A stretch of DNA of 64,000 nucleotides. Source: Humidesulfovibrio mexicanus. Lineage in GTDB: Bacteria > Desulfobacterota > Desulfovibrionia > Desulfovibrionales > Desulfovibrionaceae. Shown here piece by piece: positions 34,029-64,000 of the stretch. The first letter of the stretch is position 1, and every line of letters starts with the position of its first letter. A program made the position numbers and the translations under genes. Under the pieces are notes generated by a model. The model was not told the origin of the DNA, searched no databases, and was given only the letters and a program-made list of their open reading frames with translations. The stretch is taken from the NCBI RefSeq assembly GCF_900188225.1, contig NZ_FZOC01000002.1, forward strand, positions 554,310 to 618,309, written 5' to 3'.

Positions 34029-35924
34029 CTAGAATTTCTCGAATCCTTCGTCTGTCTTGGCTGCGGGCGCAGCCTCCAGGGCCAGCGGCTGGGCCTGTTT
34101 ATGGTCTGCGCCCATTTTGAAGAACTGCATCACCTGGGTCAGACGCTGGGCCTGTGCGGCGAGCTCCTCGCTGGTGGAGGCCGTTTCCTCGGAGGCCGAG
34201 GCGTTTTGCTGAATCACCTGATCCAATTGCTGGATCGCCTTGTTCACCTGGTCCGCGCCGGTGGTCTGCTCGCGGCAGGCGGCGCTGATTTCCTGGACCA
34301 GTTCGCTTGTGCGCTCGATGTCGGGCACGATGGTGGCCAGCATCCCACCGGCCTTTTCCGCCACGGCGAGGCTGGCTGTGGAGAGCTGTCCGATTTCACC
34401 GGCCGCCGCGCCGCTGCGTTCAGCAAGCTTGCGCACCTCGGCGGCCACAACGGCGAAGCCCTTGCCGTGTTCGCCCGCACGTGCGGCTTCAATAGCCGCG
34501 TTCAACGCAAGCAGGTTGGTCTGGCGCGCGATTTCTTCGATGAAGCCTATCTTTTCGACTATTTGGCGCATGGCGTCCACGGTTCTGGTTACAGCGTCGC
34601 CGCCTTGCTTGGCGTCTTCAGCGCTTTTGCGGGCAAGGCTTTCGGTCTGCATGGCGTTGTCGGCGTTCTGACGGATGTTTGCAGCCATTTCTTCGACGCT
34701 TGAGGAAATTTCCTCAACGCTTGCCGCTTGTTCGGTCGCGCCTTGGGAAAGGGTTTCACTTGAGGCGGAGAGTTCCTCGGAACCCGAAGCCACGGATTCG
34801 GCAGAGGCGTTGACCTGCAGCACCACCGAACGCAGCCGCGCGGCCATGTCCGTGAGGGCGGCGGCAAGCGCGCCGATTTCGTCCTTCTGGTCCACCTCAA
34901 TGCGGACATCGAGGTTGCCATCGGCAAGCTGCTTGGCGAAGTTGAGGCCCTTGTTCACCGGACCGGTTATGGCGCGGGTGATCAGCAGGGCCGCGATGGC
35001 ACCCAGAATCAAGGCCAGCAGGGCCCCGGTAAGCAGCACCGTCCGCGAGAGCGCAATCTCTCGGAACATGATTTGTTTGATGGTGTCGCGGGTGTGTTCG
35101 CAGACCTTCTGCATTTCCCGAGCGCTTTGAATGAGTTGGTCTTCCATTTCCTTTTGCTGCCCAACCGCCTGGGCGTAGCTCTCAAGCCCCTTCATGTAGA
35201 ACTCAAGTTCCCCCAGAATGGCCTCGGCTTCGGCAACGTCGGCGGGTTTGGTAAAGCGCGACTTGAGCGACGAGATGTTTGCGAGGAGCGTTTTGCCCTG
35301 ATCGCGGGCTGTTTGCAGGTATTCATCCTTTCCGGTTTGGATGTAATACATGATGGTGAGGCGGACGGACGTGATGCTTTGGGCGATGCTGGCGGCTTCG
35401 CTGGCTACGCCGACACGGGCTTCCATGGCCGCGCCGCCGTTTTTCAGTTTGAGGTCGGCCTGCATCTGTGCGGTCTGGCTGGCGTTCATGGCGTCGGCGG
35501 CCTTGGTCGCCCGTCCGGCCGCTTCGCCCATGGCCTTTTGCGTCGCCAGGCGGGTTTTCTCGCGTTCCACGTAGCCCTTGAAGGCTGCGTCGTAAGCCTT
35601 GGTGGTCGCGAGCACCTTGTCCATTTGTTCCCGGTTTTCCGCGACCTCGAATTTCGCCTTGTAGCGTTCGGCCAGCTCCAGGATTTCAGCGACGGCCTTG
35701 GACAGGGCCTCCTGGCTCTGCGGATCGCGGCGAATCTGGAAATTCTTTTCTTGGCGACGCGATTCCAGGCCAAGACGGATGATTTCGCTCATGGCGTCGG
35801 ACTTGTCCATGCGGTCGAGAACATTTGAAAGGCCGTTCCAGCTCAGGGCGGCCAAAAGTGCGGTCAAGGCGAGCACCACCCCGAAACCCAGGGCGAGTTT
35901 CATGGCCAAGCGCATGTTTTTCAT
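34029..35924 (-). CDS. methyl-accepting chemotaxis protein
   Basis: 631 residues. First membrane segment about 10-31, a long periplasmic helical domain (about 32-285) with many charged heptads consistent with the helical bimodular (HBM) type, second membrane segment near 300-325 ([23 protein letters not shown] region), HAMP domain, and the cytoplasmic signalling hairpin with the conserved tip [20 protein letters not shown]. No CheR docking pentapeptide at the C terminus (EGFEKF). The start MKNMRLAMK follows GAGGTG; the frame is open 52 codons further. The ligand is unknown. Confidence 0.92.
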
Positions 35925-50647: not shown

Positions 50648-52117
50648 CTACTGGTCCGCCGTACGTTTTTCTTCCGCCGCCTTTTCCGCCGCCAGGGCCT
50701 CCGGGCTGTCCCAACCACCTCCCAGTGCCTTGTACAAGGTAAGGGTGTTGGCCAGACGAGAGAGGCGCGCCGCGATGAGCGCCTGGCGCGAATCTGCGTA
50801 GCTGCGTTGCGAATCAAGTTTGGTGAGATAGGAGTCCACACCGTTTTCGTAGCGCAGGGTGGACAATTCGTAGCTTTTGCCCGAGGCCGCCACCAGGGAG
50901 CCCTGGGCCTTGACCTGTTCCTCCAGGGAAGCGGTCAGCGCCAGTGCGTCGGACACTTCCTTAAAGGCCGTCTGCACGGTCATTTCATATTGCGCCACCA
51001 TGATGTCGCGCTGGGCCTCGGAATACTTGACCCCGGCGCGTATGGCCCCGGTATGGAAGATGGGCAGCGTGAGCTGGGGCACGAAGGACCACGCGCCCGC
51101 CGGGGAATTGAAGAGGTCGTTTACCTGTGAGCTGGCGAAGCCTACGCTTGAGGTGATGCCGATGGACGGGAAGTAGCGCGCCCTTGCTGCGCCAATGTCG
51201 GCGTTGGCGGCTTTGAGCTGGTGTTCGGCGGCGAGAACATCCGGCCTGCGGGTCAGCACCTCGGAGGGCAACCCGGCGGGCACTGGGGTGGGCGGCGTGA
51301 TTTCCGCCAGCGACTTGGCGGGCAGCAGCTCCGGCCCAAGGGGCATTCCAACCAGCACGGCCAGGGCGTTTTCGTCCTGGGTCACCTGGGCCTCGTACTT
51401 GGCGCGCTGCACCCGAGCCGTGTCCACTGTGGTCTGGGCTTGGGCCAGCTCCAGATCGTTGGCCACGCCGAATTCATGACGCTGCCGGACGATCTCGTAA
51501 GATGCCTGTTCCGTTTCCAGAATCTCCTGGGCCAGGGCCAGCTGTTCGCGGTCCGCCGCAAGGGTCATGTAGGCCGTGGCCACCTCAGCCACGAGGGAAA
51601 GCTCCACACTGCGGCGGGAGGCCTCTGTGGCGAGGAATGTTTCAAGCGCTTCGTCCTTCAGGCTCTGGATGCGGCCGAAGAGATCAAGCTCGAATGAGCT
51701 GAAGCCGAGGCCGACGCTGTAGGTGCGGCTGGTGACGGCTTTGCCCGAGCTTGAGAGCTTGGCCGGGGTGCGGTTCATGTTGGCCCCGGCGGTTGCATCG
51801 ATCTTGGGCAGCAGGTCCGCGCGCTGGATCTGATACTGCGCCTGTGCGGCCACGATGTTCAGCGCGGCCACGCGCAGGTCGCGGTTGTTCGCCAGGGCAA
51901 GCTCGACAAGCCGTTTGGTGGGCTCGTCGGCGATGACGTTCCGCCAGTCGCGCATCGTGGTTCCAGCCTCGGCCTTGGCTCCAGTGCCGCTTGTCCAGTC
52001 TGACGGGAGCGGGGGCTTGGGCTGGACGTATTTGGGCGCCAGGGTGCATCCCCCGGCGAAGATCGGGAGCAGGGCGGCCAGGCACACGGCCGCTACAGTC
52101 TTTTGGTTTGGGCGCAT
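50648..52117 (-). CDS. outer membrane efflux lipoprotein (NodT/OprM type)
   Basis: 489 residues. The signal LAALLPIFAGGCTLAP has a lipobox (AGGC), then the TolC-like fold with two repeats: SVELSLVAEVATAYMTLAAD, RRPDVLAAEHQLKAANADIGAARARYFPSIGI (interrupted here) and ISVLRYENGV-type TLRYENGVDSYLTKLD. It forms the outer-membrane channel of the tripartite pump. Start at ATG 52117 with GAGGTG upstream, overlapping the RND gene's stop by one base. Confidence 0.9.
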   Translation of the reverse strand: MRPNQKTVAAVCLAALLPIFAGGCTLAPKYVQPKPPLPSDWTSGTGAKAEAGTTMRDWRNVIADEPTKRLVELALANNRDLRVAALNIVAAQAQYQIQRADLLPKIDATAGANMNRTPAKLSSSGKAVTSRTYSVGLGFSSFELDLFGRIQSLKDEALETFLATEASRRSVELSLVAEVATAYMTLAADREQLALAQEILETEQASYEIVRQRHEFGVANDLELAQAQTTVDTARVQRAKYEAQVTQDENALAVLVGMPLGPELLPAKSLAEITPPTPVPAGLPSEVLTRRPDVLAAEHQLKAANADIGAARARYFPSIGITSSVGFASSQVNDLFNSPAGAWSFVPQLTLPIFHTGAIRAGVKYSEAQRDIMVAQYEMTVQTAFKEVSDALALTASLEEQVKAQGSLVAASGKSYELSTLRYENGVDSYLTKLDSQRSYADSRQALIAARLSRLANTLTLYKALGGGWDSPEALAAEKAAEEKRTADQ

Positions 52118-55100
52118 CACTTCACCTCGTGTGAACTGTTGGTATCGGTGTTCCCCGCGCCGCCCGGCTCCTGGCCGGGCGTAGGCACTTCTGGCTCCAG
52201 GCCTCCGCCTTGGTCCTGCGGGTCCGCAGGCGCGTGCTTTCTGCCCATGGCGAGTTTGTAGACGATGACGAAGAACACGGGCACAAAGTAGATGCCTAGA
52301 ATCGTCGCGGTGACCATGCCGCCGATGACGCCCGTGCCGATGGCGCGCTGGCTGCCGGAACCGGCGCCGCTGGCGATGGCCAGAGGCAGCACGCCAAGGA
52401 TGAAGGCCAAAGAGGTCATGAGGATGGGGCGCAGGCGCAGGCGTGACGCCTCCATTGTCGCGTGCAGCAGGCCGTGCCCCTTCTCCACAAGGTCCTTGGC
52501 GAATTCAACGATGAGAATGGCGTTTTTGGCCGCAAGGCCGATGGTGGTCAACAGGCCGACCTGGAAGAACACGTCGTTGGTAAGGCCGCGTGCGAAGGTG
52601 GCGAGCACCGCGCCCACCACGCCCAGGGGCACCACCAGCATGACCGCGGTCGGCACGGCCCAGGATTCGTACAGGGCGGCCAGGCACAGGAACACCACCA
52701 GGATGGATATGGCGTACAGGACCGGAGCCTGGGAGCCGCTCATGCGCTCCTGGTAGGACAGGCCGGTCCACTCGATGCCCAGCCCGGCGGGAAGCTTGGA
52801 CGCGATGTCCTCGATGGCGGCCATGGCCGCGCCGGAGCTCAAGCCCGGAGCCGCCATGCCCTGGATCTCGACCGCAGGCAGGCCGTTGTACCGCTCCAGG
52901 CGGGGCGAACCGTAAGTCCAACGTCCCGAGGAGAAGGCCGAGAAGGGGACCATCTCGTCTTTTGTGTTCCGAACGTACCAGAGGTTGATGTCTTCGGGCA
53001 TCATGCGGTAGGGGGCGTCGCCCTGGACATACACCTTCTTCATGCGACCGCGGTCGATGAAGTCGTTTACGTAGCTTCCGCCAAGGACGGTGGAAAGCGT
53101 GTCGTTGATGGTGGCCTGGGACAAGCTGAAGGCCCCGGCCTTGGCTTGGTCGATGTCGATGCGGTATTGCGGGGTGTCCTCCATGCCGTTGGGGCGCACG
53201 GCCATGAGGGTGGGGGTCTTGGCCGCCATGCCCAGGAGCTGGTTCCGGGCCTGGATCAGGGCCTCATGGCCCAGTCCTGCGCGGTCTTGCAGGAAGAGGT
53301 CAAAGCCTGTTGCGTTGCCCAGTTCCATGACTGCAGGCGGCAGGAACGCGTACACGCTTGCGTTCTTGATTTGAGAGAAGGCCATCATGGCGCGGTTGGC
53401 TACGGCTTCGGCGCTGGCGTGCGCCCCTTTGCGCTCGTTCCAGGGCTTGAGCTGAATGAAGGCCAGGCCCGCATTTTGCCCACTGCCCGCGAAGCTGAAG
53501 CCCGCAACGGTGAACAGGGAACTCACGGTTTCCTTTTCCGATTCAAGGAAGTGCTTCTCCACCTGCTGCAGCACTTTGAGTGTGCTTTCCTGCGTGGCTC
53601 CCGTGGGCAGCTGCACCAGGCCGAAGATGATGCCCTGGTCTTCCTCCGGCAAAAATGAGGATGGCAGGCGCATGAACAGCAGGCCTAGGGCGACGACGAT
53701 GGCCAGATACACAGCCATGACGCGTTTGGGCCGCATCAGAAGGCCGGACACCCCGTCGCGGTATTTTGCGCTTCCGCGGTCAAAGAGGCGGTTGAAGGCG
53801 CCGAAGAAACCGGTTTTGGTATGCGTGTGGTGTTCGCCTTTGTGAACCGGCTTCAGGAATGTGGCGCACAAGGCCGGAGTGAGCACGATTGCCACCAGCA
53901 CCGAGAGCGCCATGGCCGAAACGATGGTGAGCGAGAACTGACGGTAGATGACGCCGGACGAACCGCTGATGAAGGCCATGGGGATGAACACCGCGGAGAG
54001 AACCATGGCGATGCCGACAAGCGCGCCGGTGATCTGGCCCATGGATTTTTTCGTGGCCTCTTTGGGGGAGAGGCCCTCCTCGGTCATGATGCGTTCGACG
54101 TTTTCAACGACGACGATGGCGTCGTCGACAAGCAGGCCGATGGCGAGCACCACGCCGAACATGGTAAGGGTGTTGATGGAGAAGCCGAAGGCCGCCAGCG
54201 CGCCGAAAGTGCCCAAAAGCACCACGGGAACCGCGATGGTCGGAATGATTGTTGCCCGGAAGTTCTGCAGGAACAGATACATGACCAAGAACACCAGCAG
54301 AATGGCCTCGGCCAGTGTCTTGACCACTTCCTCGATGCTGACCCGCACGAAGGGGGTCGTGTCGTAGGGATACACGGCGTGGATCCCTTCCGGGAAGGTC
54401 TTGGAAAGCTGGTCGATGGTGGCCCGCACCTGGTTCACGGTATTCAGCGCATTGGCTCCGGTTGCCAGCTTGATGGCGATGCCGGTGGAGGGCTTTCCGT
54501 TGAAGCGGGAGGTGGCGTCGTATGATTCGCTCCCCAGTTCGACGCGGGCGACGTCGCTCAAGCGGACGGTGGAGCCGTCCTGGTTCACCTTGAGGATGAT
54601 CCGCTCGAATTGCCCGACGGTTTCGAGCCGATCTTGCGACAGGATGGTGTAGCTCATCATCTGCCCTGGCAGGGCGGGGGTGCCGCCGATTTGGCCAGCG
54701 GAGATCTGATCGTTTTGTGCAGTGATCGCCGCCTGGACATCGGAAGGCATGAGCTTGTAACTGTTGAGCTTGCCTGGATCGAGCCAGACGCGCATGGAGT
54801 ACTGTCCGCCGAAAACCATTGCGTCGCCCACGCCGTCCACGCGGCTTATGGGATCAAGCAAGTTGGATGCCGCATAGTCGCTCAAGTCGTTGCCGGTCGT
54901 GGCCGGGTCGTCAGAGACCAAGGCAATGATCATCAAAAAGCTGGAGGAGCTTTTGTTGACCGTGATGCCCTGGCGCTGCACTGCGTCCGGAAGCAGCGGA
55001 GTTGCCAGGGAGAGCTTGTTTTGCACCTGCACCTGGGCGATGTCGGAATCCGTGTTCGAGTCGAAGGTGAGGGTGATCTCGGCCTGGCCGAAGGAATCGC

Positions 55101-55344
55101 TGGTGGAGGACATGTAGCGCAGGTCGTCGATGCCCTTCATCTTTTGTTCGATGACCTGGGTGACGGAGTCCTCGACCGTTTTGGCGGAAGCGCCGGGGTA
55201 TGTGGCGTTGATGGTGATGGCAGTGGGCGCGATCTTGGGATACTGCGCGATGGGCAGCGTCAGGATGGAGAGCGCCCCCACGAGCATGATGATGATGGCG
55301 ATCACCCAGGCGAATACCGGGCGATCAATGAAGAATTTTGCCAT
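52117..55344 (-). CDS. RND efflux pump inner membrane transporter (AcrB/MexB type)
   Basis: 1075 residues, twelve membrane helices in two halves with large periplasmic loops. The proton relay is intact: [16 protein letters not shown] in TM4 (two aspartates) and the lysine in [17 protein letters not shown] in TM10. The start [18 protein letters not shown] and the pore/porter domains match the HAE1 group of drug exporters. The C-terminal extension of about 35 residues after the last helix is Pro/Gly rich. It pumps hydrophobic drugs or solvents from the periplasm. Confidence 0.94.
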
Positions 55345-55365
55345 TCTCTGCTGCTCCGGCTGTTG

Positions 55366-56961
55366 CTACTGGTGGTTGGCGGTGGAATCGCCGCTCTTCA
55401 CGCTTGTGCCGGGACCAGTGGAGCCGGGCCACGGCTGGTCCTTGGGCGGGGAATAGACAAGGGTTCTATTCGCGCTGGCCGTGGTCTTTGTCTTGGGCTC
55501 GTCCGCCATGACTTCCCGCATGGTCTCCTTCATGGCGTCCTTTCCGGAAACCGCCTTTGTGGCGCCGGGCGCCGCCTGCGAAGGCGTGGCCTGTGCAGCA
55601 TGTTTCGCTTCAGGCTTGGCCGCAGGCTTCGCCTCAGACTTGGCATCAGGCTTCGCCTCGGCCTTGGCCGCAGGCTTCGCTTCAGGTTTGGCCGCAGGCT
55701 TCGCCTCAGGCTTGGCGTCCTTGGCGGGAGCTGTTGTTTTTGCCGCTTCCGGCTGGCCGGGCTGCTTGGCTCCGGCTGCGTCGGCCTGGGGCAAGTCCTT
55801 GGGCGCGGGCTGGGCCGAACCGGCTTCCACGGGCTTGACCTTTGAGCCCGGCTTGGCCTTTTGGAGCCCCTCGACGATTATGCGGTCGCCCGCGGCGAGG
55901 CCTTCGGACACAAGCCATTTGTCGCCAACCACACGGGAAACGGTGATGGACCGGGCCTCGACGGTGTTGTCCTGCTTGAGGGCCATGACCAGGGCGTTGC
56001 CCTTGCTGTCGCGCGTGACGGCCTGCTGCGGCACCAGCACCGCGTTTTCCTCGACGCCTTCCTCCAGCACGGCGCGCACGTACAGGCCGGGCAGCAAATC
56101 CTGCTGGGGATTGGGGAACAGCGCACGCAGGGTGATCACGCCGGTGCTTTGGTCCACAGTGATATCGGAGAACTGCAGCGAACCTTCAAGAGGATACGGG
56201 GTGCCGTCCTCGAAGAGCAGTTTCACTTTGGCGCCGTTTGTTCCAGATTTCTTGAGTTTGCCGCTGGCAAGGTCGCGCTTGAGGCGCAGAACCTCTGCGC
56301 TGGACTGTGTCACATCAACGTACATGGGGTCCGTCTGCTGGACCGTGGTCAGCGGATCGGCCTGGCTTGCGGTGACAAGCGCACCCGGAGTCACGTTGGA
56401 TTTTCCGATGCGTCCGGTGATCGGCGAGGTGACACGCGTGTAGGAAAGGTTGATGCGGGCCGTCTCCAAGGCGGCGCGCGCGGCGACGACCTCGGCCTCG
56501 GCCTGGTTCATGGCGGCCTGGGCGTCGTCGTTGTCCTGCTGGCTTACGGCGTTGACCTTGGACAGGTTGGCGTACCGCTTGCCCTTCAGGCGCGCCGGAA
56601 CCGCATTGGCCTCGGCCTTGGCGAGCGTGGCCTTGGCGTTGTCGTAGGCGGCTTGGTAGGTGGCGGGATCAATCTGGTAGAGCACCTCGCCAACTTTCAC
56701 GTCCCCGCCTTCCTTGAAGGTCCGTTTTTGGACGATGCCTCCGACCTGTGGTCTGACTTCGGAGATTTGGTAGGCCGAAGTCCGTCCCGCAAGCACGGTG
56801 GTCAGTGTGACCTGCTGCGGGGCAATCGTGGCGATGCTGACTTCCGGTTCTGGCGCTTGAGCCGGCCCGGCAGCCTGCTTGTCTCCGCCGCAGCCGAACA
56901 AGGCCGCGGTCAGGGCGAGGGGGATGAACAAGGAACGAGCGGTGTTTTGTGCAATGCGCAT
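55366..56961 (-). CDS. RND efflux periplasmic adaptor with long KPA-rich tail
   Basis: 531 residues against about 390 for AcrA. A lipoprotein-like signal (LTAALFGCGG) leads to the adaptor: barrel-lipoyl half VEVRPQVGGIVQKRTFKEGGDVKV-type (EVRPQVGGIVQKR near 65), coiled-coil hairpin, TRVTSPITGRIGKSNVTPGA, beta-barrel, and the closing AGDRIIVEGLQKAKPGSKVKP. After about residue 375 follows an unusual tail of about 150 residues, rich in Lys, Pro, Ala and Glu (AKPEAKPAAKPEAKPAA). I chose MRIAQNTARS; the frame is open 40 codons further. It links the RND transporter to the outer channel. Confidence 0.9.
   Translation of the reverse strand: MRIAQNTARSLFIPLALTAALFGCGGDKQAAGPAQAPEPEVSIATIAPQQVTLTTVLAGRTSAYQISEVRPQVGGIVQKRTFKEGGDVKVGEVLYQIDPATYQAAYDNAKATLAKAEANAVPARLKGKRYANLSKVNAVSQQDNDDAQAAMNQAEAEVVAARAALETARINLSYTRVTSPITGRIGKSNVTPGALVTASQADPLTTVQQTDPMYVDVTQSSAEVLRLKRDLASGKLKKSGTNGAKVKLLFEDGTPYPLEGSLQFSDITVDQSTGVITLRALFPNPQQDLLPGLYVRAVLEEGVEENAVLVPQQAVTRDSKGNALVMALKQDNTVEARSITVSRVVGDKWLVSEGLAAGDRIIVEGLQKAKPGSKVKPVEAGSAQPAPKDLPQADAAGAKQPGQPEAAKTTAPAKDAKPEAKPAAKPEAKPAAKAEAKPDAKSEAKPAAKPEAKHAAQATPSQAAPGATKAVSGKDAMKETMREVMADEPKTKTTASANRTLVYSPPKDQPWPGSTGPGTSVKSGDSTANHQ
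55603..55718. repeat. tandem repeat DNA coding the adaptor tail
   Basis: GGCCGCAGGCTTCGC recurs three times (about 55618, 55666 and 55690), with related units GGCTTGGC and CTCAGGCTT between. It encodes the KPEAKPAA repeats. Copy number may vary between strains. Confidence 0.7.
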
Positions 56962-56977
56962 GGTTGTGTCCTGATGC

Positions 56978-57649
56978 TTAGAGTGTGGTGGCGGAGGCGT
57001 CCTGTCGGTGCGGGAGCAAGGCCCGGAGGCGCTCCATGCCGCCAAGCGAGAACTGCATGATAAAGTCCGTGATTTCGTCAATGGTGCCGGGTTCGAGGAC
57101 CAGCGCCGGGTTCATGCGGCTCATGGCCTCTTTGGCGAAGTCGAAGAGCACGCATTGGCCGATGATGCTGGAGGCGCAGCGGCTTACAATGCTTTCGTCC
57201 GCACCGGGCAATGCGGCCCGCACAATGTCGAGGAGCAGGTTGTGCGTCTCTCGGCAGTGCTTTTCAAAAAGTTCCCCAAAGAGTTGTGATGGCTCAATGA
57301 ATTCCAAAGTGAGCAGCTTCCCCAGCCGCTCGTTTTCAAGGGTTCCATCTCCCAGGGTCTGCAGGAGCAGACTGCGCACATATGCCCGTAAGCGCATTTC
57401 CGGGGAGCTGTCCCGGGTGACGCCCTTGTCCCTGGGGTTGCGTCTGTTTTCCCGTTCAATGTAGTCCTGGAGCACAGCCACGTAAAGTTTCTCCTTGCCG
57501 CCAAAATGGTAGTTGACGGACGCCACATTTGCCCCGGCCAAGCCGCAAATGTCGCGGATGGTCGCGTTCTTGAGTCCGTTTTCGGCAAAAACCTTACGGC
57601 CAGTATGCAATAACCGAGCCTTTGTGCCTGTGTCTTGTGTTTCGATCAT
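56978..57649 (-). CDS. TetR family regulator of the efflux operon
   Basis: 223 residues. N-terminal helix-turn-helix: KARLLHTGRKVFAENGLKNATIRDICGLAGANVASVNYHFGGKEKLY-type (TetR signature NVASVNYHFGGKEKLY near 50). A C-terminal ligand domain of the AcrR/DUF1956 type follows. It is the first gene of the unit, 16 nt upstream of the adaptor. It likely represses tetR-acrA-acrB-oprM. I chose MIETQDTG with GAGGA upstream. Confidence 0.9.
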   Translation of the reverse strand: MIETQDTGTKARLLHTGRKVFAENGLKNATIRDICGLAGANVASVNYHFGGKEKLYVAVLQDYIERENRRNPRDKGVTRDSSPEMRLRAYVRSLLLQTLGDGTLENERLGKLLTLEFIEPSQLFGELFEKHCRETHNLLLDIVRAALPGADESIVSRCASSIIGQCVLFDFAKEAMSRMNPALVLEPGTIDEITDFIMQFSLGGMERLRALLPHRQDASATTL

Positions 57650-57683
57650 TGTTCCTCTGGTGGACAAACGGAGTTTAGAACCA

Positions 57684-57706
57684 AAATTTAAACGGCATTT
57701 AAATTT
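57684..57706. promoter_or_regulatory. perfect inverted repeat, candidate TetR operator
   Basis: AAATTTAAA and TTTAAATTT flank CGGCA, a perfect 9-bp inverted repeat, 35 bp upstream of the tetR start. Size and place fit autoregulation of the efflux unit. Confidence 0.6.
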
Positions 57707-58076
57707 ATGCCTCCGGCTTGTCAAGGTGTTTGCGCGGTGAAAAGTTGTATCGTTGATTAAGGTAATGATCTTGAAATGTTACAGTGCGTGCGTTGGTTTC
57801 TTGATGTTGAGTCCGGATGCTGATTTTATCATGTTTTCAGGGGAGGATCCTCCGGGACCATGCTTCCGAGGGGGGGATGCATATGAGGCGTGCACATATT
57901 TGCACTTTGTGCAGTGCGATGTGCACAAACGCGTCGGGATTTTAACGTGGCGAAGGAGGGGGTGAGTCTTCATGCCATACAATCTGGCAAAAGTTCAAGC
58001 GCGCGTCGGCGGAGCCGCTTCGCCGCCAGGCCGATGGCAGCAAAGGCATGCACGTGTTGGTGCTGGAGGGAAAATG

Positions 58077-58387: not shown

Positions 58388-59491
58388 GTGATCAAGGTTG
58401 TTGTCGTCGACGACTCTGCGTTCATGCGCAAGGCCATCAGCACCATGCTGGCCAAGGACCCGGAGATCGACGTTGTGGCCACGGCCCGCGACGGGGAGGA
58501 GGGCCTGGAGCTCATCCGCAAGCACGATCCCGATGTCGTGACCTTGGACATTGAGATGCCGCGCATGGACGGGCTCACCGCTCTGCGCCATATAATGATG
58601 GAAATGCCCCGACCTGTGCTCATGGTCAGTTCGCTTACCAACGAGGGGGCCGAGGCCACACTGAAGGCTCTTGATCTTGGCGCGGTGGACTTCATCCCCA
58701 AGCAGCTTTCCAAGGTTTCGCTGGACATAATCAAGATCGAGGCCAACCTCATCTCCAAGGTCAAGATCGTGGCTTCGCGCAGGCTCATGCACTCCCGGTC
58801 TAGGGCTGGGGGAATCGCGGCCACGAGACCTGCCGCGGCTCCGTCCCCTGCCGGTCGGCCGGAACCGCGTCCTTGCGGAAGGCCTGCGTCCCCGGTCGCC
58901 ACTGCGGGCGGGGCGCCCAAGCGGGACGTGGTGGTCATCGGCGTCTCGACCGGCGGACCGCCGGCTGTGCAGAAGGTGCTTTCGGCTCTGCCCGCAAATT
59001 TTCCCGCAAGCATCGTCATCGCCCAGCACATGCCCGCCGCATTTACCGGGCCTTTCGCCAAACGACTGGACGGGCTGTGCCAGATATCCGTGAAGGAAGC
59101 CGAGCCTGGCGACCGCCTGAAGTCCGGCTGCGCCTTCATCGCCCCTGGCGGCAAACACCTGCTGCTCAAGCAGATGGTCAGCCGCGTTGACCTGGAGATC
59201 AGTACTGAGCCTGCCAGCGCCCTGTACAAGCCCTCGGCGAACGTGCTCATCGGCAGCGCGGCCGAGGCCGTGGGCAGACGGGCGTTGGGGGTGATCCTCA
59301 CGGGAATGGGGAACGACGGCATGGAGGGGGTGCGCGCACTCAAGCAAAAGGGCGGTCGAGCCCTGGCGCAGAGCGACGCCACCTGCGTTGTCTATGGAAT
59401 GCCCAAGGCAATTGTTGATGCTGGACTTTCGGACGAAATTGTGGATATTGATGACATGGCCCAGGCCATCATGAATAATCTGTATGTTTGA
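58388..59491 (+). CDS. cheB: chemotaxis protein-glutamate methylesterase CheB
   Basis: 367 residues. Receiver domain at the N terminus with phosphoacceptor Asp54 in VVTLDIEMPRMDG, then a Ala/Pro/Arg linker, and the methylesterase domain from about 180: GVSTGGPPAVQKVL (catalytic Ser), AQHMPAAFT (His) and GMGNDGMEGV (Asp). It removes methyl groups from chemoreceptors. AAGGAG lies 7 nt before the GTG at 58388, so that start is preferred to the ATG at 58370. It leads the chemosensory cluster to the right edge. Confidence 0.93.
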   Translation: MIKVVVVDDSAFMRKAISTMLAKDPEIDVVATARDGEEGLELIRKHDPDVVTLDIEMPRMDGLTALRHIMMEMPRPVLMVSSLTNEGAEATLKALDLGAVDFIPKQLSKVSLDIIKIEANLISKVKIVASRRLMHSRSRAGGIAATRPAAAPSPAGRPEPRPCGRPASPVATAGGAPKRDVVVIGVSTGGPPAVQKVLSALPANFPASIVIAQHMPAAFTGPFAKRLDGLCQISVKEAEPGDRLKSGCAFIAPGGKHLLLKQMVSRVDLEISTEPASALYKPSANVLIGSAAEAVGRRALGVILTGMGNDGMEGVRALKQKGGRALAQSDATCVVYGMPKAIVDAGLSDEIVDIDDMAQAIMNNLYV

Positions 59492-59563
59492 GCAACGGCG
59501 GCAGAGGGGGATTGCTTCGTTGTGTTTCGCTAGCGGGGCGATATCCTGGAGGAGCTCAGTTCG

Positions 59564-61492
59564 ATGACCGAATGCAAAGAAATCCTGGCGATGCTCAAAA
59601 GTCCCGAAACGGATGTGTTGCGCGAGGCTGCGTACCTCGCCGGAGAAGCGCATTGCGAGGACGCCGTGCCGTTGTTGGTCGAAATGCTCAAAAGCAGCAA
59701 CATCGGCGTTCAGGAGTCTGCGGATAACGCACTGCGCAAGATCGGCGGACGGGAGGCCGTCACCGGAGTCATCCCGCTGCTGCGTTCCGATGAAGCCCCT
59801 GTGCGCAACGGCGCCATGGATATCCTCCGCGCTTTGGGCGGCCAGGAACTGTCGTCCATCATTCCCCTGCTCAAGGATGAAGACGTCGATATCCGGATTT
59901 TCGCCACCGATATTTTGGGCTCCGCCGACAACACCATGGCCATCGGTCCGCTTTGCGACGCGCTGCTCAAGGATCCAGAGGTCAACGTCCGCTATCAGGC
60001 TGCTGTGAGCCTTGGGAACCTTGGCTTGCCAGAGGCCGCAAAATGCCTGAACCAAGCCATGCGCGACGAGGAATGGGTCCAGTATTCCGTCATCGAGGCC
60101 TTGGCGAAGATTCGCCATGCGAGTTCCGTCGACGCCATGGTCAAGGCCATGAGCCATTCTTCGGAGCTTGTGGTCTCCATGATCATCGACGCGCTGGGCG
60201 ACATGGGAAACGTAAAGGCCGTTTCTTTGCTGCTTGGCCGCATGGAGGACTCGCCCACGGCTTTGCGCAACAAGATCGTCAAGGCCATCGTCAAGATCCT
60301 TGGGGCCAAGCTGGTGAACCTGCTGCCCAAGGACGCCCGAGAGAATTTCCGCGACTATCTTCTCGTCGCGCTTGAGGATGAGGATGTCGAGGTCCAGGAT
60401 GCGGCTATTTCCGGCTTGGCCGCTATGGGGGGAGACGATGCCGCCGCCGGGGTTTTCGCCATCGCTGTCAAACTCGACGCCGACAAGGATCAGGATCGCC
60501 TGGAGGGCATTATTGCCAACCTCGCCCAAATGGGCGTCACCGCAGTTTTGAAGAATGCTTTGCGCAACGAGGACGTCCACGCGGCTCTGCTTGCCGTGGA
60601 GACCCTGTCGCGTATCGAGGACCCGGAGGTGGAGAGCGTTCTGGTGAACGCCTTCTGGCAGGGATACATCACCGTGCAGCGGGCCATTGTTTCTGTTCTG
60701 TCGCGCATCGCCGGGGCGGGCAGCATCGATTTTTTCATGGATATTCTGCACAAGCACAACGATGGCAAGGTGCTCAAGTCCGCTGCCGCCTTCCTCGGGC
60801 AGAAGCTCAAGCACGCGCCGGCAGCCGAGGCGCTTTTCGACCTTCTGGAGCACCAGTACGATGACGTGAAGGAGGCTGCGCTTGAGGCCTGCGTCGCCAT
60901 CGGCGGTGACGCCATGCAGGACCGTTTCCGTGAGCTTTTTCTGGGGCAGGACCACATGAAGCGCCTCATGGCCGTGTACGCGTTGGGGCGCATCGACGCC
61001 GCCGCGAACATCGAGCTGTTGAAGGGCGCTCTTGAGGACGCCGAACCGGAAATCCGCAAACATGCCTTGGAGGCCATATCAAGCCTTTGCTTCCAGAATG
61101 ACATATGGCTCGATACCCTTGCGCCGCGCCTATTGGATGAGAACCGGGATGTGCGCCAGACCGTGGTCGAGATCATGGGCCGGTGCTTCACGCCGGAGAT
61201 TGTTCCCCACCTTGTGAGCGCGTTGTCCGATGTCGATGACTGGGTCAAGGTGCGCGCGCTTGAGGTGCTGAGCCAGCACCGGGTGGCGGCAGCCTTGCCA
61301 GAAGTGGTTGCATTGCTGGAATATCCCAACAAGCTGGTGGCCATACGGGCCATCGAGTGCCTTGGCGGGATTGGCGGCACGGCGGCGTTCCAGGCTTTGC
61401 TGAGCATTTCCGGGGGGGAGGACCAAGAGCTGATGGAGGCTGCGGAATCAGCCATTGCCAGAATTCAGGAAGAACAGGAAAAGGAACTTTAG
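59564..61492 (+). CDS. HEAT-repeat protein of the chemosensory cluster
   Basis: 642 residues made of about 19 helical HEAT (PBS-lyase type) repeats with a period near 31-33. Typical units: VQESADNALRKIGGREAVTGV, VRNGAMDILRALGGQELSSI, VRYQAAVSLGNLGLPEAAK and VKVRALEVLSQHRVAAALP. No enzyme motif is seen. It probably forms a curved scaffold for partners in the array. GGAGGAG precedes the ATG. It lies between cheB and cheR, and cheR begins on the base after its stop. Confidence 0.88.
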   Translation: MTECKEILAMLKSPETDVLREAAYLAGEAHCEDAVPLLVEMLKSSNIGVQESADNALRKIGGREAVTGVIPLLRSDEAPVRNGAMDILRALGGQELSSIIPLLKDEDVDIRIFATDILGSADNTMAIGPLCDALLKDPEVNVRYQAAVSLGNLGLPEAAKCLNQAMRDEEWVQYSVIEALAKIRHASSVDAMVKAMSHSSELVVSMIIDALGDMGNVKAVSLLLGRMEDSPTALRNKIVKAIVKILGAKLVNLLPKDARENFRDYLLVALEDEDVEVQDAAISGLAAMGGDDAAAGVFAIAVKLDADKDQDRLEGIIANLAQMGVTAVLKNALRNEDVHAALLAVETLSRIEDPEVESVLVNAFWQGYITVQRAIVSVLSRIAGAGSIDFFMDILHKHNDGKVLKSAAAFLGQKLKHAPAAEALFDLLEHQYDDVKEAALEACVAIGGDAMQDRFRELFLGQDHMKRLMAVYALGRIDAAANIELLKGALEDAEPEIRKHALEAISSLCFQNDIWLDTLAPRLLDENRDVRQTVVEIMGRCFTPEIVPHLVSALSDVDDWVKVRALEVLSQHRVAAALPEVVALLEYPNKLVAIRAIECLGGIGGTAAFQALLSISGGEDQELMEAAESAIARIQEEQEKEL

Positions 61493-62371
61493 ATGGCAGC
61501 GCTTTTTTCCACCACTGCGGCCGTCGGCGCGGAGCTCAAAATCAGCGACGCCGAGTTTGTGCAGTTGCGTGACTTCATCTATGCGCAGTGCGGCATTTAT
61601 GTCGCGGACAACCGCAAGTACCTGCTGGAGAATCGTCTTGCGAACAGGCTGAAGCTCCTGAACCTCAAGAATTTTGGCGAGTACTACCACTATCTCCAAT
61701 ACGACTCCAACAGGAAAGGCGAGCTTACCAAGTTATTCGAGGTGATCACCACCAACGAGACCAGCTTCTACCGTAACCCTCCACAGCTCAAGGTTTTTCA
61801 GGAGAACATCCTCGCCGAGGTCATCGCCGAGCTCAAGAAGAAGGGCGACAAGCGCTTGCGCATTTGGTCGGCGGGTTGCTCCACCGGCGAGGAACCATAT
61901 ACCATCGCCATCATCGTGGCCGAGGTGCTCAAGAACGAATTGGCCAGTTGGGACGTGCGGATCACCGCCAGCGATCTTTCCGAGCGCGTGCTTGAGGCCG
62001 CGCGCAAGGGTCTCTACAACGAGTACACCTTGCGCACCACGCCCAAAGAAATCGTCGCCCGCTATTTCGAGAAAGATGGCGACAACTTTCGCGTCCGGCC
62101 GGAACTCAAGCGCCTCATCTCCTTCGGGCAGCTGAATTTGTCCGACCGTGTGGCGCTCAAACGGGTGGAGCGGTCGCAGATCGTGTTCTGCCGCAACGTC
62201 ATCATCTATTTTGACGACGAGATGAAGCGCAAGGTCATAGGGGCCTTCTACGACAACCTTCTGGGGGGCGGCTATCTCCTCATCGGGCACTCGGAGTCGC
62301 TGCACAACATCACGCGCTCCTTCAAGCCCATCCACTACCCCGGAGCCATAATGTACAAGAAGGAGGCCTGA
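61493..62371 (+). CDS. cheR: chemotaxis protein methyltransferase CheR
   Basis: 292 residues. The N-terminal helical part (LRDFIYAQCGIYVADNRKYL, LFEVITTNETSFYRNP) and the methyltransferase core (IWSAGCSTGEEPYTIAII near 125, FCRNVIIYFDDE near 230) are those of CheR, which methylates receptor glutamates with SAM. It starts one base after the HEAT gene stop, so the pair is coupled. No TPR extension. Confidence 0.94.
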   Translation: MAALFSTTAAVGAELKISDAEFVQLRDFIYAQCGIYVADNRKYLLENRLANRLKLLNLKNFGEYYHYLQYDSNRKGELTKLFEVITTNETSFYRNPPQLKVFQENILAEVIAELKKKGDKRLRIWSAGCSTGEEPYTIAIIVAEVLKNELASWDVRITASDLSERVLEAARKGLYNEYTLRTTPKEIVARYFEKDGDNFRVRPELKRLISFGQLNLSDRVALKRVERSQIVFCRNVIIYFDDEMKRKVIGAFYDNLLGGGYLLIGHSESLHNITRSFKPIHYPGAIMYKKEA

Positions 62372-62408
62372 TGCGTTCCGGTGCACGGACGCTGGGCTTG
62401 CGGTTCAG

Positions 62409-63194
62409 GTGATTGTGAGCGCCAGGGTCATCGCCATAGCCAATCAGAAAGGCGGTGTGGGCAAAACCACCACCACACTGACCTTGGCGGCCGCCCTGGC
62501 ATTGCGCGGCAAGCGGGTGCTGGTCATGGACCTGGACCCGCACGCCAACGCCTCGGTGCATCTCTCTTTTTTTCCGGAGACGCTGGAGGCTACGGCGTAC
62601 GATCTTTTCCAGGCCGAGAGCGTCGATGCTGCGCTTTTTGAGCGCATTCTGAAGCGCGGACTCGCAGGAGGGTTTGACTTCGTTCCCGGCCATATCAGGC
62701 TTTCTGAGCTTGAAGTGGATTTGAGGGATCGCAAGAACAAGGGACTCATCCTGACGGAAGCGCTGGAGCTCAAGCGGGGCGAGTATGAGTATGTGCTGCT
62801 TGATTGCCCGCCGCATGTGGGCATTCTCCTGGTGAACGCCATAGTCGCCTCGGACCTTGTGCTCATTCCCATACAGACGGATTTTTTGGCCCTGTACGGA
62901 ATTCGTCTGCTGTTCGACACCATACGGCTGCTCAACCGGGTGTTGCCGAAAAGCGTTTGTTACATGGCCCTGCCCACCATGTACGACCAGCGCACAGCGG
63001 CGTGCAGGCGCATATTGCGCATCATGCGCGACAAGTTGGGGGAGCGCGTGTTTGGAACCGTCATCCATTTCGACACCAAGTTTCGGGAGTCGAGCGCCGG
63101 GGGCAAGGTTATTTTCGAGATCGACCCCAAGGCCCGCGGGGCTTTGGAATACATGCAGCTGGCAAAAGAGATAGACACCAATGAAAACCCCTGA
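62409..63194 (+). CDS. ParA-like ATPase (ParC-type) of the chemosensory cluster
   Basis: 261 residues, ParA/MinD family. The deviant Walker A is NQKGGVGKTTTTLTLA near residue 15; VLVMDLDPHANASVHL and LLDCPPHVGILLVNAI follow, and TDFLALYGIRLL closes the core. In Vibrio and similar species such an ATPase in a chemotaxis operon positions the array at the pole. GTG 62409 is assigned; GTG 62415 is possible. Stop overlaps cheW by 14 nt. Confidence 0.88.
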   Translation: MIVSARVIAIANQKGGVGKTTTTLTLAAALALRGKRVLVMDLDPHANASVHLSFFPETLEATAYDLFQAESVDAALFERILKRGLAGGFDFVPGHIRLSELEVDLRDRKNKGLILTEALELKRGEYEYVLLDCPPHVGILLVNAIVASDLVLIPIQTDFLALYGIRLLFDTIRLLNRVLPKSVCYMALPTMYDQRTAACRRILRIMRDKLGERVFGTVIHFDTKFRESSAGGKVIFEIDPKARGALEYMQLAKEIDTNENP

Positions 63195-63858
63195 ACAATA
63201 TTTCGTCGAGAACGTCCGCCTGCCCGATGTGGATGACGCAGGGCGTGCGCTCACCTCCGCCGAGGAAGCCTTTCTGGACAAGTATCTTGGCGTGGAAAGG
63301 GAACGGGTTCTTGCGGAGGCCAAACGCCTTGATCCCCGTGGAGCTGATGTCGTGTCGGGCATCGCCTCCGAATCCTCCTCTGCTGAGGAGCATTCGGACG
63401 AGAAAATGCGCGCGCAGACGGAGATACGCCTGGTGAGCTTTTCCCTTATGGGTCGCGAGTACGCTTTGCCCATAACCGTGATCCAGGAGGTCATCCGGTA
63501 TGTGCGCCCAACCAAGCTTCCCGCAGCCCCAAGCAGCATCGCGGGCATCATCAATCTTCGCGGCCGTGTGACCCCGCTAGTAAGCTTGCGGTTGCTTCTC
63601 GGCATCCCCGGTGAGCAGGAGGACCGCTTCATCGTTGTCTGCCGACATCGTGGCCTTCAAATCGGACTTATGATCAACGCGGTTTCAACGATGTACAAGG
63701 CCGATGGGGCTGACCTTGAATGGAATGTGGAGGCCAATGTCGGCGTCAACGCGCATCTGCTTCTCGGTCTCTACAAGGCAGGCGAAAAACTCATAAGCAT
63801 TCTGTCCATCGACAACCTGGTCCAGGTGGTGCTGCAAGGGGGAAGGACTCATGCCTAA
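63181..63858 (+). CDS. cheW: CheW-type coupling protein with N-terminal extension
   Basis: 225 residues. Residues 1-78 are an extra segment rich in Asp, Glu and Ser (FVENVRLPDVDDAGRALTSAEE, SESSSAEEHSDEKM), then the CheW fold: RLVSFSLMGREYALPITVIQEVIRYVRPTKLP-type (start of the domain near 80), IAGIINLRGRVTPLVSLR and VCRHRGLQIGLMIN. It joins chemoreceptors to CheA. The extension may contact the ParA-like ATPase, as in ParP proteins. Overlaps the next ATG by 8 nt. Confidence 0.9.
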   Translation: MKTPEQYFVENVRLPDVDDAGRALTSAEEAFLDKYLGVERERVLAEAKRLDPRGADVVSGIASESSSAEEHSDEKMRAQTEIRLVSFSLMGREYALPITVIQEVIRYVRPTKLPAAPSSIAGIINLRGRVTPLVSLRLLLGIPGEQEDRFIVVCRHRGLQIGLMINAVSTMYKADGADLEWNVEANVGVNAHLLLGLYKAGEKLISILSIDNLVQVVLQGGRTHA

Positions 63859-64000
63859 ACATATTTTGATTGTGGACGATTCTAAGACTGTACGGAACCT
63901 TGTGGCCTTTATCATGAAGAAGGAAGGCTTCAAGGTCACCACGGCGGAGGACGGTCTTGACGGATTGGAAAAGCTGTACGCCGCGGAACAGGTCGACTTG
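63851..64000 (+). CDS. cheY: CheY-type response regulator, cut by the right edge
   Basis: The first 50 residues of a receiver domain are seen: MPKHILIVDDSKTVRNLVAF with the acidic pair DD, then the second strand KVTTAEDGLDGLEKL, and the window ends at QVDL, just before the expected phosphoacceptor. The start overlaps the cheW stop. Full length and any attached domain are unknown. CheA is expected further to the right. Confidence 0.85.
   Translation, partial: MPKHILIVDDSKTVRNLVAFIMKKEGFKVTTAEDGLDGLEKLYAAEQVDL

Follow-up and report, generated by a model that had tools for sequence, protein, structure and literature searches.

A CheA3-type chemosensory operon of Humidesulfovibrio mexicanus with a ParC-type ATPase, a CheW carrying a putative docking motif and a HEAT-repeat protein encoded next to CheR

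The stretch of Humidesulfovibrio mexicanus DNA analysed here (64,000 nucleotides of contig NZ_FZOC01000002.1; hereafter the window) ends within a chemosensory operon in which a HEAT-repeat gene and a parA-like gene stand among cheB, cheR, cheW and cheY. Its probable counterpart among described systems is the che operon of Desulfovibrio vulgaris Hildenborough, which contains parA and has cheA3 (DVU2072) as its terminal gene; a mutant in cheA3 shows no motility in capillary assays and an impairment in soft agar (PMC3944678); in the same region, DVU2075 has been described as a ParA family protein and DVU2070 as a TPR protein (PMC11784015), and DVU2067 as a GGDEF-only response regulator (PMC4114195). 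Papers are cited by PubMed Central (PMC) number and, for the most part, from excerpts of their text. In the Vibrio ParC/ParP system, as here, a ParC-clade ATPase is encoded in a che operon before the gene for a motif-linker-CheW-like protein (PMC5706961); the present operon differs in that this partner is its only CheW, that its CheA lacks the LID motif and that a HEAT gene is added. The ParC of Halothiobacillus neapolitanus (Hn0722) pairs with a protein annotated as CheW, and a docking peptide has been modelled from the first 30 residues of this partner; the Hn0722 and Hn0723 genes overlap, like parA and cheW here, and the excerpted description of that system mentions no HEAT gene (PMC10241942).

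Like ParC/ParP, HEAT proteins of chemosensory systems are already known; they occur in two other systems, which we liken to the present one by description. Cpc7 of the Myxococcus xanthus che7 system is, as here, a HEAT-repeat protein associated with chemosensory signalling, with CheY7 as its partner and development as the output (as cited in PMC11514114). OE2401F of Halobacterium salinarum is a HEAT_PBS protein encoded in the che region and needed for taxis; its gene adjoins a DUF439/CheF gene, and the protein is linked to the archaeal flagellum and interacts with CheD and OE2402F (PMC2666748). Unlike OE2401F, the HEAT gene described here has cheB and cheR as its neighbours and no adjacent DUF439/CheF gene. 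The word HEAT has no occurrence in the main text of the D. vulgaris cheA3 paper, and the excerpted descriptions of that operon mention no CheW extension (PMC3944678); a Geobacter chemotaxis paper (PMC2577667) and an M. xanthus paper (PMC3945109) contain no word starting with HEAT. Among the matches listed in the open-licence literature (titles and abstract openings), there was no report of a HEAT protein in the cheA3 operon or of the CheW motif described below, nor of the combination of HEAT with ParC and CheW, the breadth of the HEAT-cheR linkage or the short HEAT form.

We read the cluster as a CheA3-type operon with two add-on modules, a ParC together with a CheW that carries a docking motif, and a HEAT scaffold for CheR and perhaps CheY, and give this reading a probability of roughly 0.55. 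ParC, on the nucleoid or at the pole, would bind the N-terminus of CheW, and this contact would position the CheA3 array and hand it to the daughter cells, with CheW serving as the array's own ParP. The HEAT protein, in turn, may hold soluble adaptation and output proteins near the array, CheR first and perhaps CheY, and could thereby aid the action of CheR on receptors that mostly seem to have no CheR tether. The features concerned are as follows.

58388..59491, plus strand: cheB, receptor methylesterase with a receiver domain, 367 residues (Pfam CheB_methylest, E = 5.4e-63, and Response_reg)
59564..61492, plus strand: HEAT-repeat solenoid, 642 residues (Pfam HEAT_2, E = 2.9e-69, 8 stretches)
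59804..60097, plus strand: residues 81-178 of the HEAT protein, its best conserved stretch (R81, N141, L162 and W171 invariant in a 67-row alignment of the long HEAT form)
61493..62371, plus strand: cheR, receptor methyltransferase (Pfam CheR, E = 7.8e-57)
62409..63194, plus strand: ParA ATPase of ParC type, 261 residues (AAA_31, E = 4.1e-47, and CbiA; deviant Walker A motif KGGVGKT; ParC clade by sequence)
63181..63858, plus strand: cheW with an N-terminal extension, 225 residues (Pfam CheW domain at residues 84-215)
63184..63204, plus strand: N-terminal CheW motif KTPEQYF, proposed ParC-docking peptide (E-x-Y-[FIL] in 38/38 ParA-linked CheWs)
63250..63291, plus strand: second conserved motif of the CheW extension, LTSAEEAFLDKYLG (pattern in 37/38)
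63851..64000, plus strand: cheY, cut by the window end and continuing to the equivalent of 64219
64313-67384 in window equivalents (L009:9313-12384): cheA, 1023 residues, following cheY

The six genes from cheB to cheY are all present and closely packed, as an earlier, preliminary description of this DNA had stated; all lie on the plus strand, and the cheA that the description recommended looking for in the rest of the cluster is the next gene after cheY. The cheB gene starts with GTG and has AAGGAG upstream, the ATG of cheR abuts the stop codon (TAG) of the HEAT gene in the same frame, and the last 14 bases of parA are shared with cheW, an overlap common to many relatives at the level of the order. 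In CheA, three stretches match the Hpt domain at E<=1, two of them at E<=0.001; these stretches precede the kinase core. CheA also has a long Pro/Ala/Lys linker. On the plus strand beyond cheA lie a coiled-coil/TPR-like gene and dprA (both assigned by reading translations), a 140-residue open reading frame (ORF) without a Pfam match and, further downstream, an HDOD gene, a receiver-GGDEF gene and an integrase-like xerC (again by reading the translation). A TPR-like gene and later a receiver-GGDEF gene thus follow cheA in the same order as at the D. vulgaris cheA3 locus, and because the gene order matches we infer that this is the same operon, the principal chemosensory operon for flagella in this bacterium and of the CheA3 type known from D. 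vulgaris, a likeness drawn from published gene descriptions and concerning order, not spacing.

Homology and joint absence give the module of ParC and CheW good support. In a tree of 67 rows, 21 order-level ParAs and 14 gammaproteobacterial ParCs (a selection from 50) form one branch (support 100/97) that excludes the remaining 32 rows, which are of Soj, plasmid and other types; Halothiobacillus neapolitanus is likewise a gammaproteobacterium. The tree omits L247 and L248, which have long branches, and retains L184, which is very long too; it also omits five of the best matches from outside the order (L165-167, L169 and L170), which contain neither DT[KR]FR[ED] nor two other ParC patterns. The first of these patterns occurs in 31/38 ParAs of che clusters and 46/50 ParCs, versus 0/14 other ParAs of the order and 0/24 further ParAs. 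Among plasmid records, the top match listed for this ParA is a locus without annotation in an Aeromonas caviae record (39.9%), which sits in a cluster with cheY, cheA, cheB, ParC, ParP and cheW-like ORFs; within that record, the score of ParC is 195 bits, against 148 for the next-best ParA. The record itself, NZ_AP026896.1, is 4.94 Mb long and, while listed as an A. caviae plasmid, resembles a chromosome. By this grouping, the ParA of the cluster is a ParC, and its gene lies within the che operon directly before that of its CheW-like partner.

The partner consists of an N-terminal segment with the motif and a CheW-like domain at the C-terminus, joined by a linker. Its extension is acidic and about 80 residues long, in agreement with the preliminary description: the first 78 residues include 18 acidic and 11 basic ones, giving a net charge of -7. 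All 38 order-level CheWs encoded beside ParA carry E-x-Y-[FIL] within their first 25 residues (0.9% in shuffles), usually in the form K[TS]PE[EQ]YF, and 37 of them also have the second motif, near residue 35. In the three order-level clusters without ParA, one CheW extension is devoid of the motif (L084) and no CheW is present in the other two (L074 and L093). Since the motif is present in ParA-linked CheWs and missing where ParA is missing, the CheW of the operon probably does the job of ParP, with a putative ParC-docking motif in its first 40 residues or so. A short N-terminal Y-[FL] motif, a pattern chosen after viewing the sequences, was found in 46/48 ParPs from named gammaproteobacteria (29/48 from Aeromonas); it differs from the CheW motif and is akin to it, which is no more than suggestive. 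Partners of ParA-type ATPases have been described as docking via positively charged N-termini, in contrast to the net acidic extension found here (excerpts of PMC10241942).

The second module centres on the HEAT protein, which we infer from gene linkage to be a dedicated chemosensory scaffold. The gene is conserved with its cluster, the very point on which the preliminary description had made its proposal depend. Loci were read for 41 order-level clusters (window included) and for 40 of the 50 HEAT-containing genomes from outside the order; the gene context thus covers 37 of the 45 HEAT-positive relatives described next. In the order, the gene directly after HEAT is cheR in 41/41 loci, a recurrence that excludes chance, and cheB precedes HEAT in 38. 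Among 59 relatives, 45 match the HEAT protein at E<=1e-60 (window genome included; split and partial copies counted), and FliM is present in 45/45 of these; six relatives have no FliM, none of them with HEAT, and eight have FliM and no HEAT, including G006, which carries a ParA at a contig end. HEAT and a che-type ParA occur together in 41 of the 59, HEAT alone in four, including G007 with no more than a fragment at a contig end, while one has ParA alone and 13 have neither. Across the phylum sample, 66/395 genomes match HEAT at 1e-20, many matches from outside the order extending over the greater part of their length at 21-31% identity, and FliM was found in 54/66 of these genomes versus 184/329 without HEAT.

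In the 40 loci from outside the order, the first che gene to follow HEAT within 1 kb is cheR in 33, cheY in five and neither in two, the latter (L122 and L139) ending with their contigs. One of the five, L134, is counted under cheY only through an earlier-starting, long overlapping ORF, and another, L114, has cheR before HEAT. In six of the 33 (L107, L108, L110, L111, L115 and L118), HEAT and cheR are separated by about 0.85 kb; the gap of L107, the one scanned, contains an HDOD gene, and the window genome likewise has an HDOD gene downstream of cheA. The stretches read from the 40 loci include cheR in 36 cases and cheY in 36. In several of them, the genes before HEAT resemble flhF, flhG and fliA (by reading translations). 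A second cluster layout, with the order cheB, short HEAT, cheR, cheY, cheA, contains HEAT ORFs of 216-226 residues that match residues ~5-190 of the long form. It was found in four che clusters, three in the order and one outside it (L280, L281, L282 and L283 of G029, G043, G040 and G538, the last being the one outside); a CheW-type ORF of 554-598 residues precedes cheB in 3/4, and the fourth cluster starts at a contig end. L144 (G405), one of the 40 loci above, shares this layout, its HEAT ORF being 230 residues long. In L282 and L283, a ParA follows cheA and falls outside the ParC group in a quick tree. All four short HEATs retain R81, N82, D109, R111, F113, D116, N141 and W or Y at 171, sites that eight generic HEAT loci do not retain together, the alignment of the latter being possibly out of register. 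A strict HEAT signature was found in 26/41 order-level, 9/40 other, 4/4 short and 0/8 generic loci and in 0/1752 background ORFs; it is specific but not general and was rejected as a general marker, and we limit the claim to the aligned invariant residues.

Several observations weigh against the reading of two modules as a whole. In L109, L113 and L116, the stretch read has HEAT and cheY but no cheR, and CheR is therefore not an obligate neighbour. A fold of HEAT and CheR in a single chain (22 rows), with Gly in place of the stop codon, gave no docking at a predicted TM-score (pTM) of 0.55; the junction was disordered, with the blocks at a predicted local distance difference test score (pLDDT) of 31 and 43, and this model lends docking no support, yet is no disproof of it. 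FliM does not show in 12/66 HEAT-positive genomes of the phylum, some of which are incomplete. Trees of the CheW domain, which omit the L231 ParP and CheV rows, do not settle the placement of these CheWs between ParP and CheW: they form a clade of their own (75/83), a grouping with ParP has support of 50/0 and one with CheW is compatible with the approximately unbiased (AU) test (p 0.668). A LID-like repeat, its pattern derived from one Aeromonas CheA, in which it occurs three times, is found in 0/41 order-level CheAs and is absent from Escherichia coli CheA, and the LID is described as limited to CheAs that work with ParC/ParP (excerpts of PMC5706961). The operon holds one CheW gene and no separate one, further CheW-domain genes lying elsewhere in the genome, and the system is not a canonical ParC/ParP, having neither a separate CheW nor the CheA-LID motif. 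The resemblance to ParC/ParP noted in the preliminary description accordingly holds for the ParC clade, the ParC residues and a CheW motif that tracks ParA, and breaks down at these two points. The analysis turned up neither binding nor localisation data on these proteins.

A scaffold for CheR or CheY is our best guess for the HEAT protein from its gene neighbourhood, and a close rival places it on the output side, where it would bind CheY or CheY-P and relay or sink the signal, the adjacency to cheR being operon order only. Precedent speaks for this: Cpc7 interacts with CheY7 in M. xanthus (Darnell 2014, as cited in PMC11514114), and without OE2401F halobacterial flagella are unable to switch direction (PMC2666748). 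So does linkage, with cheY near HEAT in the 36 loci from outside the order counted above, including the three without cheR. Against it, the gene right next to HEAT in every order-level locus is cheR and not cheY, and the untruncated L141 and L146 contain HEAT and cheR without a cheY match above 60 bits, as does the truncated L122. Residue conservation does not discriminate between the two partners, and was set aside for this purpose: the invariant HEAT residues are retained in the cheR-less L109, L113 and L116, and of the two untruncated loci without a cheY match, L146 retains N141 and W171 and L141 has lost them. An N-terminal CheR motif, [LIM]F[SN][KSTG], occurs in 26/41 CheRs of the order and was not used. 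We consider a purely CheY-directed role possible, if doubtful. For the role in adaptation that the preliminary description had suggested, cheR adjacency is the one argument; the read-through fold offers no docking, and CheY is an equally plausible partner.

Adaptation is part of textbook chemotaxis, and CheR is usually thought to reach receptors alone or by a pentapeptide tether at the receptor C-terminus. The window genome encodes 20 methyl-accepting chemotaxis proteins (MCPs; E<=1e-20), two of which have a FEKF-type C-terminal pentapeptide by our reading, and two CheRs, one of them in this operon. One of the two such MCPs, L275, lies in the window (34164-34637, minus strand) and ends in GFEKF, like the CheR-tether pentapeptide; only L274 does likewise. 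More tentatively, the HEAT protein might be an unnamed core chemotaxis component of Desulfobacterota-like bacteria, a hub of adaptation that binds CheR (and CheY) via a conserved patch near its N-terminus (R81, N141 and W171) and brings the methyltransferase to receptors without a tether, with a long flagellar form and a minimal form of ~220 residues in another che class, beside a CheW acting as ParP. A solenoid retained beside cheR across many families of the phylum suggests a missing part of adaptation. If true, a CheW that docks to ParC would mean that array building and inheritance are fused in one coupling protein, beyond the original ParC/ParP group. D. vulgaris, a genetically tractable sulfate reducer with a cheA3 phenotype, suits the testing of both claims.

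Polar positioning by ParC could also give way to a mode in which the ParA spreads arrays over the nucleoid without a polar landmark, like PpfA of Rhodobacter sphaeroides. The nucleoid is the matrix of ParA-type ATPases, and PpfA functions without landmarks (excerpts of PMC10241942). The ParA described here, however, groups with ParC, in a tree that has no PpfA row, and no receptor gene is present among the genes of the cluster. TlpT, a cytoplasmic receptor, is encoded beside PpfA. We regard such a mode as unlikely and keep to ParC and CheW as the proposed positioning pair.

The long HEAT protein is predicted to fold as a single solenoid (AlphaFold2, pLDDT 95.5, pTM 0.78). Most of its closest structural matches are HEAT scaffolds from eukaryotes, such as SF3b, CAND1, karyopherin and the PP2A A subunit, with TM-scores <0.5, and these matches indicate a solenoid in the model and nothing further. 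Of 398 genomes sampled from the Idiomarina phylum, the one phylum to which this absence refers, none gave a full-length match; four had partial matches, one of them being the short HEAT of G538. In the plasmid collection, 13 records match HEAT and none reaches 80% query coverage. A reading of the HEAT gene as a neutral passenger, or as a PBS-lyase-like gene out of place, to which its top NCBIfam match, a phycobilisome-degradation HEAT model, might point (7/7 matches lie below the cut-off), is highly improbable given its linkage to che genes in almost every locus read from the phylum, the absence of full-length matches from the other phylum sampled and the presence of invariant residues.

Scans for promoters and terminators gave scores at the level of shuffles. 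An ORF of 359 residues lies on the minus strand just past cheA. Upstream, the operon has as its neighbour (window 50648-57724, minus strand) a set of genes that, by translation, encode a TetR-type regulator and an RND efflux system (adaptor, pump and outer membrane factor). In the window genome, two receptors (L257 and L270) seem to end in a hemerythrin-like domain, as does DcrH.

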